Shown: in pieces, positions 6,640 to 8,414 of the stretch | Layout of the letters: every line of letters begins with the position of its first letter | Position numbering within the stretch: position 1 is the stretch's first letter | Source of the DNA: Cubamyces lactineus | Taxonomy: Eukaryota; Basidiomycota; Agaricomycetes; Polyporales; Polyporaceae | Direction of reading: 5' to 3' | DNA length: 64,000 bases | NCBI GenBank assembly: GCA_022376465.1 | Contig: JACDTU010000016.1 | Location: 806,001-870,000 of the forward strand | Program-made: the position numbers and the translations under genes | The notes under the pieces: model-generated | Database searches by the model: none | Told to the model about the DNA's origin: nothing | Seen by the model: only the letters and a program-made list of their open reading frames with translations

Positions 6640-8414
6640 ATGTCCTCGGGGACGGATGCCCAAGAAAATGCAGAAATTATCGCATTCTACGAGAGTCTGT
6701 GAGTCGCTATGACTACAACTTAACCTCATGACGGGCGCGGACAGGTACTGATATTCCTGCAGGTTTGTCAACACATGCTGTCCCATCGCGGTTTTGGGTG
6801 AGTTTGAGATCTACACCGCGGAGGTTCTGAAGTTCTGATCCTCGTTGAATATGCAGCCTTCTTGTCGTATGAGTATCTCATAACGTTCGACCGGGAAGTC
6901 TCCCTATTCTGGCGGCGGAAACTCACCGGGGCGTCCGTCCTGTTCTCTACAAACCGATATCTACCCTTATTGGTTAATATCCTCAACCTGACCATATCGG
7001 CACGCATGTCGGATACGGTACGTCCCCTTTGCGCCCTCATACGGACAAGTCACTGAAGTTGGTTTTTAGAGGTGCGCTTTCCCTGTGATCGAGCCCACAG
7101 AATATTTACTGACCTCGGACCTCGTAGTTGCAACGACTATGTGAAGGCGTTGCAAACTATTGAGATTCTGCAATATATGCCTTGGGCAGGTAAGCTCGAA
7201 CATGGTAACGGTCGCAACGGGTGATGCAAAACCGACGCATGCGTTCTATCTATGGCTTTACAGCCTTCTCCGCACTTCGTACATTTGCACTCAGCAGGGG
7301 AAGTTGGGTGCTCGCCATGCTTGTCTTCCTGTTATCCGCTGTGCCCATCGGCGTCAACTTTGTGGGTCTTACTAATAGAATTCTCTATCTGTTCCATGAA
7401 ACTGACCTCGCTTCGCAGTCACAATACCGCTGGCTAGTTGTATATAACGACCCCATGCTCGGCTGTGGCAAATCTAGCACCGTCACACTCGAAACTGCGA
7501 AGAGGTAAGGTTCTCGGTCATGCAGTCTCAGCATTCCGGAATGACGTGTTGACACATCCGTAGACGTGAGTTCTGCTGCTGACTACTTGGATGCCTTGTC
7601 TCTCAACCATTTTCTTATAGTAACCATCGCCTCTCGGACGTGCCTGATGGCCGCCGACATCATCGTCCTCATCGTGACTTGGATGTCGACACTCACAACG
7701 ATGCGTTTGACCGATATTGCCTTGAAAGGCAAGCCTTCTTTTGCACGCATGCTCGTGCGTGATGGTGCGTGATTCCTAGTTGAAGTAGTGCCACATCTTC
7801 TCACATTGTCCCCAGGCACTATATATTTTAGGTAGGCCCATCGAGCGCGATGACGTTTACTTAACATATAACTAATCCGAGGCCCGTAGCGTTCTACTAG
7901 TGTTGAATACGCTGCACCTCACCTTCACCATGCTTTCGGTACGTCCACATCTTCGTGCTAATCCAGCATCTGAGCATCGACTCATCCTTCAAGTACGCCA
8001 CAGATTACCTCGGATGCTCTCTCGCCTGTCAGCTACTTCACAACCTTCACTGAGCCGTACGTCTTTCCTTCCTCCTCATAATCCTCCATTGCCATGGCGC
8101 CCTATGCTAATTGCCTTCACAGGATCACCGCCGTCCTCGTCTCCCGCTTCCTGCTCAACCTGCAAGAAGTAAACCAATACAACCACCGCTCCGCACCCGC
8201 CTCGCTCACCCAGAGCATCACCCTCGACTTCGCATCGCGCGTCGTCGGCTCGCTTGGCTCTTCGCTCGAGCCGAGTGACGATTCTGTGCGCACACCCGAA
8301 GACGGCGCACAGGATCTCGACATAGCGTGGGAAGACAACGAATTGAGTGTGCTCGACTTGAACGGGGAGGCTGGATGCTCGCGGTCCACGCACCTCACGA
8401 TGGGCGATCCGTGA
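6640..8414 (+). CDS. DUF6533-type seven-helix membrane protein
   Basis: Predicted 351-residue integral membrane protein of the basidiomycete DUF6533 family; function unknown. Seven hydrophobic helices can be traced, starting with CCPIAVLAFLSYEYLITF, including AFSALRTFAL and MLVFLLSAVPIGVNF, and ending with FTEPITAVLVSRFLLNLQEV. The signature after helix 1 is SYEYLITFDREVSLFWRRK. The C-terminal tail is acidic and Ser-rich. Proposed exons: 6640-6698, 6763-6797, 6857-7017, 7070-7071, 7128-7189, 7264-7361, 7419-7504, 7564-7565, 7621-7764, 7816-7831, 7890-7938, 7967-7992, 8033-8056, 8123-8414. Two exons are just 2 nt, and without them the frame breaks. The intron 7939-7966 would be only 28 nt. If those 2-nt exons are not used, this copy is a pseudogene. 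Confidence 0.75.
7070..7071 (+). other. candidate 2-nt exon (AG)
   Basis: The upstream exon ends with a whole codon (ACG, 7017) and the downstream exon must start as xxT-TGC to give the conserved S-C-N segment. Dinucleotide AG at 7070-7071 sits between a TTTTTAG acceptor (intron 7018-7069, 52 nt) and a GTGCGC donor (intron 7072-7127, 56 nt). Including it makes AGT-TGC and restores the frame. Treating 7018-7127 as one 110-nt intron gives a stop within 13 codons. Confidence 0.6.
7564..7565 (+). other. candidate 2-nt exon (AC)
   Basis: Second instance in the same gene. AC lies between a CCGTAG acceptor (intron 7505-7563, 59 nt) and a perfect GTGAGT donor (intron 7566-7620, 55 nt). Joining AAG-AG + AC + TA-ACC yields K-R-L-T-I-A-S-R, which leads correctly into the family segment RTCLMAADIIVLIVTW. 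A single 116-nt intron would put the downstream exon out of frame. Confidence 0.6.

Follow-up and report, generated by a model that had tools for sequence, protein, structure and literature searches.

Gene structure and protein product

The window analysed here is a 64,000-nucleotide stretch of DNA from Cubamyces lactineus (Polyporales; genome of 36.3 Mb in 43 contigs), and the gene at positions 6640–8414 encodes a DUF6533 protein (Table 1). When the dinucleotides at two sites, AG at site A and AC at site B, are both retained, the gene yields a 352-residue product whose best protein match is the hypothetical protein C8Q73DRAFT_668207 of the same species (P0001), identical at 352/352 residues. 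If both dinucleotides are dropped, stop codons follow shortly past the first site, and skipping a single 2-nt exon shifts the frame. The coordinates, dinucleotides, splice sites and intron sizes (52 + 56 and 59 + 55 nt) proposed by a sequence-only reading of this gene were all confirmed, and the joined frame gives the residues it had predicted across the junctions, T-S-C-N and K-R-L-T-I-A-S-R, with no stops. At each site an exon within the 1–3 nt range is bounded by canonical splice sites on both sides. Both exons are required by the reading frame and are conserved, as judged from DNA in paralogs and from protein in other species.

Table 1 Parts of the modelled DUF6533 gene, in positions of the window.
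Feature	Positions	Strand	Length	Details	Basis
Exon 1	6640–6698	+	59 nt	start ATG at 6640	product identical to deposited P0001
Exon 2	6763–6797	+	35 nt		joined model
Exon 3	6857–7017	+	161 nt	bulk of DUF6533 domain	joined model, domain match
Intron A1	7018–7069	+	52 nt	phase 0; GTACGT..TTTTTAG	splice-site inspection
2-nt exon A	7070–7071	+	2 nt	AG; bases 1–2 of Ser86, then Cys87	frame, paralogs
Intron A2	7072–7127	+	56 nt	phase 2; GTGCGC..CTGAC..CTCGTAG	splice-site inspection
Exon 5	7128–7189	+	62 nt		joined model
Exon 6	7264–7361	+	98 nt		joined model
Exon 7	7419–7504	+	86 nt		joined model
Intron B1	7505–7563	+	59 nt	phase 2; GTAAGG..CCGTAG	splice-site inspection
2-nt exon B	7564–7565	+	2 nt	AC; base 3 of Arg168 and base 1 of Leu169	frame, paralogs
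Intron B2	7566–7620	+	55 nt	phase 1; GTGAGT..CTCAAC..TTATAG	splice-site inspection
Exon 9	7621–7764	+	144 nt		joined model
16-nt exon	7816–7831	+	16 nt	within DGTIYFS	joined model; same place in 36/41 genes
Exon 11	7890–7938	+	49 nt		joined model
Exon 12	8004–8056	+	53 nt		joined model
Exon 13	8123–8414	+		stop TGA at 8412–8414	joined model

The product belongs to the DUF6533 family (PF20151), with the Pfam domain scoring 53.5 bits over residues 25–70 against a curated cut-off of 24.1. In the AlphaFold2 prediction (mean pLDDT 80), long helices pack into a bundle, with seven long helical stretches provided that residues 84–100 and 102–116 are counted as one. In a fold search with this model, G protein-coupled receptors (GPCRs) were the top but weak matches among those listed (best E = 8e-4), with TM scores normalized by query length of 0.33–0.46 among the 50 matches listed. 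In the alignment and the predicted structure, Cys87 is nearly invariant and directly preceded by Ser86 near the start of a helix, and C155, likewise a nearly invariant cysteine, sits within a pair of strands. The C87/C155 arrangement may resemble the disulfide between helix 3 and loop 2 of class A GPCRs. Another DUF6533 member, SNB1, is described as a seven-helix membrane protein and as needed for developmental patterning of Coprinopsis fruiting bodies (PMC10949477, in excerpt). Searching by sequence for a solved structure of the window protein returned none, and an Rfam scan of the window gave no match.

Short exons at the same codons in paralogs

The genome contains 81 DUF6533 matches, approximately 70 of them above the curated cut-off. 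From 59 chosen paralog places we analyzed the best 40 by domain score, each as a 3.6 kb region, which together with the window gene make up the 41 genes considered below. They were aligned with a splice-aware profile aligner written for this survey, which returns the window model. A 2-nt exon was placed at site A in 36/41 genes and at site B in 29/41 in a first pass with a profile carrying the window protein at triple weight, such that runs with the profile masked, described below, provide the fair test. The second pass used two profiles, which included the window protein, the deposited C. lactineus protein P0025 and the first-pass paralog translations, and its unmasked counts are thus partly circular: 2-nt exons were called at site A in 37/41 genes (36/40 paralog loci) and at site B in 30/41 (29/40 paralog loci), while five further genes (5/41; L055, L057, L059, L063 and L067) carried an 8-nt exon at site B. 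The dinucleotides varied at both sites. AG was the most frequent at site A (24 genes), followed by GG (4), AC (3), GT (2), TC (2), AT (1) and GC (1), in each case followed by one base and then TGC (23) or TGT (14), and at site B we found AC (6), AT (6), TG (4), CT (3) and eight further pairs in 11 genes.

Loci where the unmasked second pass called no short exon were L047, L052, L056 and L068 at site A and L047, L049, L052, L060, L068 and L069 at site B (the 8-nt genes aside), and several of them were informative by eye. L056 has CACAG-AG-GTGAGC at the expected place of site A and L060 has CCGTAG-CA-GTGAGT at site B, while CACTAG-GG-GCACGT at site A of L047 is a candidate GG exon with a GC donor that was called in the first pass and lost in the second. 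In L068 a single exon runs uninterrupted across site A, which makes this locus a naturally occurring reference for the 2-nt join. Site A of L052 is ambiguous and could be a single-intron state; among the 41 genes there was otherwise no clear case of that state at site A, which would fit joint loss of both introns through cDNA. The aligner can err, as a 1-nt exon called in L066 is probably an artefact, and the same probably applies to a 9-nt call in L040.

Short exons were also placed outside the two sites. In the second pass 9-nt exons were called in seven loci, and in L055, L059, L062, L063, L067 and L068 they lay near residues 236–240, where numbering differs between the two profiles; four of these six loci belong to the 8-nt clade. 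Together with the conserved 16-nt exon, the 2-nt exons make this a family with many microexons.

When the profile was made neutral around both sites, 2-nt exons were still placed at site A in 30/41 genes and at site B in 29/41. The remaining 11/41 at site A had no short exon (7) or one of 5–7 nt (4), and the remaining 12/41 at site B had none (6), an 8-nt exon (5) or a 9-nt exon (1). After dinucleotide shuffling of the gaps, which took in only genes already called with a short exon, a 2-nt exon was chosen in 11/222 cases at site A (5%) and 23/180 at site B (13%). In an earlier masked run built on a different profile the values were 29/41 and 28/41, compared to 7/174 and 13/168 in gaps shuffled under the same restriction on genes; the window gene kept both exons, and site A of L061 was lost in the first masked run. 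The 2-nt exon is therefore in excess of chance. Introns flanking the 2-nt exons had median lengths of 58–61 nt, compared to a median of 60 nt among the other introns (n = 288, all before residue 245, with later introns left out), and the outer gaps had medians of 121 nt at site A and 119.5 nt at site B. Counts of AG-N2-GT were 41 in the 37 site A gaps and 32 in the 30 site B gaps, while all other AG-N(k)-GT spacers with k from 0 to 20 numbered 0–11 each, apart from peaks of 29 for k = 0 at site A and of 22 and 19 for k = 6, which AG-AG-GT and GTNNGT probably generate by themselves.

Deposited proteins and the age of the two sites

Species other than C. lactineus are represented by deposited proteins, which serve as indirect witnesses. 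We assessed indels in the 120 relatives listed, leaving out at each site the proteins that did not cover it (n = 90–120). Indels of at least 3 residues were found in 51/117 proteins at site A and 55/120 at site B, compared to 68/910 across eight other introns and 0–27 of 113–120 at nine non-intron control points (highest 27/120, at residue 200). The signal lies in long indels, since counts of any indel at the two sites (63/117 and 66/120) were similar to those at two other introns (55/120 and 61/119) or three control points (64, 69 and 67 of 120). Inserts at site A started with V in 13/29 cases against a background of 8.2% (p = 1.5e-7 assuming independence, which ignores kinship, close relatives such as P0002 and P0003 not being independent), as would be expected from read-through of GTN after a phase-0 donor. 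Four inserts started with RY or RC (P0024, P0039, P0045 and P0055), as AG followed by GTRYG would give. In P0002 (T. cubensis) and P0003 (C. menziesii), 18 extra residues (54 nt) ending in PQ precede S-C, which would fit a retained, stop-free intron A1. The 2-nt exons would also account for the frequency with which annotated DUF6533 proteins are broken at these two places.

We compared four deposited C. lactineus members with our models, and two of them, P0001 and P0025, match models with both 2-nt exons. P0025 equals the aligner model of L061 with AG and CT at 365/365 residues, although both P0025 and the first-pass L061 translation were in the profile. The other two, like many of the relatives, have deviating annotations: P0035 differs from the L048 model at both sites and elsewhere, and P0123 differs from the L067 model at site A. 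From their sequences, P0035 (at A and B) and P0123 (at A) appear to be mis-annotated.

A maximum-likelihood tree of 46 rows divided the family into two clades (support 99/97). The five 8-nt genes formed one group (99/88) together with proteins of other species, which, judging from genus names, presumably represent other Polyporales as well as Agaricales and Hymenochaetales. The tree excluded L049, a truncated locus; L060, though uncalled at site B, was assigned manually to the 2-nt group there, and seven rows, namely L069 plus six proteins from other species, belonged to no group. In both clades the exon at site A is 2 nt long, whereas at site B one clade has 2 nt and the other has 8 nt. Site A, at codon 86, thus probably predates the divergence of the two clades, a dating tempered by the midpoint placement of the root and by the early branching, within one clade, of L047 and L068, both with no called site A. 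At site B (codons 168–169), an in-frame change of 6 nt in either direction could have converted 2 nt into 8 nt or the reverse. The recurrence of 2-nt exons in paralogs and the clustering of indels at both junctions make these exons look ancestral rather than products of local intron gain.

The wider clade was assessed with transcript-like contigs (sources lgn and jgi, 0.9–1.8 kb, with a long open frame), which from their length are probably spliced RNA; six contigs of 2.0–4.3 kb were set aside as ambiguous. Indels of at least 3 residues occurred in 13/20 transcript-like and 70/107 annotated sequences at site A, and in 0/20 and 11/110 at site B, but the loop at site A varies in length, such that this simple test is unusable there. 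Annotated proteins fell outside the transcript-like length range in 35/107 cases at site A (p = 0.0017) and 27/110 at site B (p = 0.013), compared to 13/109 and 5/109 at two control introns, the range being set by 20–21 transcript-like contigs, none of which falls outside it by design. As 12 of the 27 outliers at site B were only 2 residues longer and may be natural, site B of the wider clade is weak evidence. An individual case at site A is P0142, with 19 residues that are absent from the Postia placenta annotation P0145 (66% identical).

Alternative readings, splicing and relation to known systems

If each gap were a single long intron (110 and 116 nt) the gene would be a frameshifted pseudogene, and the frame does break when the dinucleotides are left out. 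We consider this highly unlikely, since most of the 40 paralog loci repeat this frame offset together with a 2-nt exon, a pattern not expected from decay, introns longer than 100 nt are rare among the comparison introns (10/288), and the orthologs P0005, P0006 and P0008 (73–74% identity) are annotated at the joined length at both sites. A gene with one intron per site and a weak alternative splice site (for example 7008–7127, 7018–7071 or 7505–7570), gaining or losing residues, is a reading that draws on 11 frame-true one-intron joins at site A and one at site B, so that the sequence-only reading went too far in making a kept dinucleotide the sole way to join the frame. The orthologs P0004 and P0014 also look by eye as if annotated with a 7008-type donor at site A. 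Every such join, however, uses a low-scoring donor (such as GTCGGA, GTCCCC or GC types) or acceptor (such as GAG), and compared to the 2-nt join would add 5–21 residues (10/11) or remove 4 (1/11) beside the nearly invariant C87, or add 16 at site B, unlike P0001, P0005, P0006, P0008 and the other relatives that are clean at both sites (35/117 in all), making this reading very improbable.

Stwintrons, in which an internal intron splits a splice element of an external one, resemble our sites in that two introns are excised consecutively, by intron definition, from one stretch, as described for fungi in excerpts of PMC12403724. They are nested and their correct splicing leaves no base, whereas here two complete neighboring introns, each with its own GT (GC once, in L047) and AG in the listed pairs, enclose 2 coding nt needed for the frame; the sites fall outside the stwintron class, and this explanation is extremely unlikely. 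Equally unlikely is an origin of genuine 2-nt exons by recent insertion of an intron beside an older one in the window gene. Each gap does resemble two adjacent introns, and intron gain next to an existing intron was one origin that the sequence-only reading had suggested. That suggestion is not supported, given the 2-nt exons at matching codons in the majority of the 40 paralog loci, both sites being common to distant paralogs and site A to both of the well-supported clades, and given the lack of any direct repeat of at least 10 nt between the introns of either pair in the window gene. Its other suggestion, a systematic tolerance, proved right as an inherited feature of the DUF6533 gene family. 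AG at 7070–7071 and AC at 7564–7565 are thus, on sequence evidence, very probably real inherited 2-nt coding exons, each between two ordinary spliceosomal introns of 50–60 nt.

These results are consistent with the two 2-nt exons of the sequence-only reading, and the stepwise splicing of two normal introns that it proposed fits them as something we infer. Introns of Ascomycota are paired by intron definition (PMC12403724, in excerpt), and we assume that intron definition would likewise govern recognition of the basidiomycete introns here, which would then be excised in succession. Removal of the first intron would fuse the 2 nt with a normal exon, after which the other intron could be spliced normally. 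Two successive reactions are likely, as 3′ and 5′ splice sites 2 nt apart could hardly be bound together, and such reactions have been proposed for an Arabidopsis 1-nt exon (PMC4674806, in excerpt). The 2 nt would also double as bases −2 and −1 of the next 5′ splice site, and one sign in the data suggests that they may help define the second donor. The intronic score of donor A2 was 0.59 where the exon is AG (n = 24) and 3.66 otherwise (n = 13; p = 0.001), as AG supplies matching exonic bases such that the intronic part of the donor can be weak; the same trade-off occurred in other introns of these genes (1.86 in 20 introns vs. 3.14 in 214, p = 0.001). The second donor was weaker on average at site A (1.67 vs. 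3.11, p = 0.03), at least partly due to the AG cases, with no clear difference at site B (3.21 vs. 3.8, p = 0.16), and no order of removal could be deduced from splice-site strength at either site of the 2-nt genes.

Ultra-short exons of other kinds offer points of comparison. The 1-nt exons of plant APC11 and VPS55 are, like those described here, ultra-short coding exons between two introns that are conserved, in their case in land plants, and missed by annotation. Those exons are 1 nt long, occur once per gene in few copies and have been proven by RNA, whereas the DUF6533 exons, known from sequence alone, are 2 nt long, occur twice per gene in most examined paralogs of a large family, vary in their dinucleotides and differ in length (2 or 8 nt) between clades. 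The 1-nt exon of the Fusarium P450 genes CYP621A is likewise fungal and was inferred from out-of-phase neighbors and a conserved protein motif, with confirming reads reported; in excerpts of the source it is a single G, constant in 20 orthologs (abstract) or 24 genes (Discussion) (PMC12940212), as opposed to 2-nt exons with variable bases in paralogs of a basidiomycete. The literature, as far as excerpts go, mentions 1-nt exons in plants, in Fusarium and also in mitochondrial genes, and recursive splicing with zero-length exons is named in PMC4674806. Our sites read AG-NN-GT rather than AG-GT and are not recursive splice sites; their introns are only ~58 nt long and 2 nt are kept. In recursive splicing, a 3′ site is directly followed by a 5′ site and removal is stepwise, such that long introns are divided and no bases are kept. 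A keyword search of open-licence PMC papers found no family with two 2-nt exons per gene.

Exons shorter than 3 nt were met in the literature in a handful of genes, whereas here dozens of natural 2-nt copies occur in one genome. Copies with variable bases, an 8-nt version and one copy that is intronless at site A make the splicing rules testable by RNA sequencing, namely the order of removal, the contribution of exonic bases to U1 pairing and the error rate at adjacent 3′ and 5′ sites; a paper on Ganoderma notes that long reads are poorer than short reads at recognizing very short exons (PMC11590231, in excerpt). What might be taken for a defect of a single gene looks like an old, inherited feature of the family that gene finders often mishandle. 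We lean slightly towards the view that the 2-nt exon at codon 86, found in both deep clades, one of which takes in Agaricales, Hymenochaetales and Polyporales members, predates the mushroom orders, and that thousands of receptor-like genes in Agaricomycetes may need obligatory stepwise splicing of this exon next to a conserved cysteine, possibly as a checkpoint on their expression.
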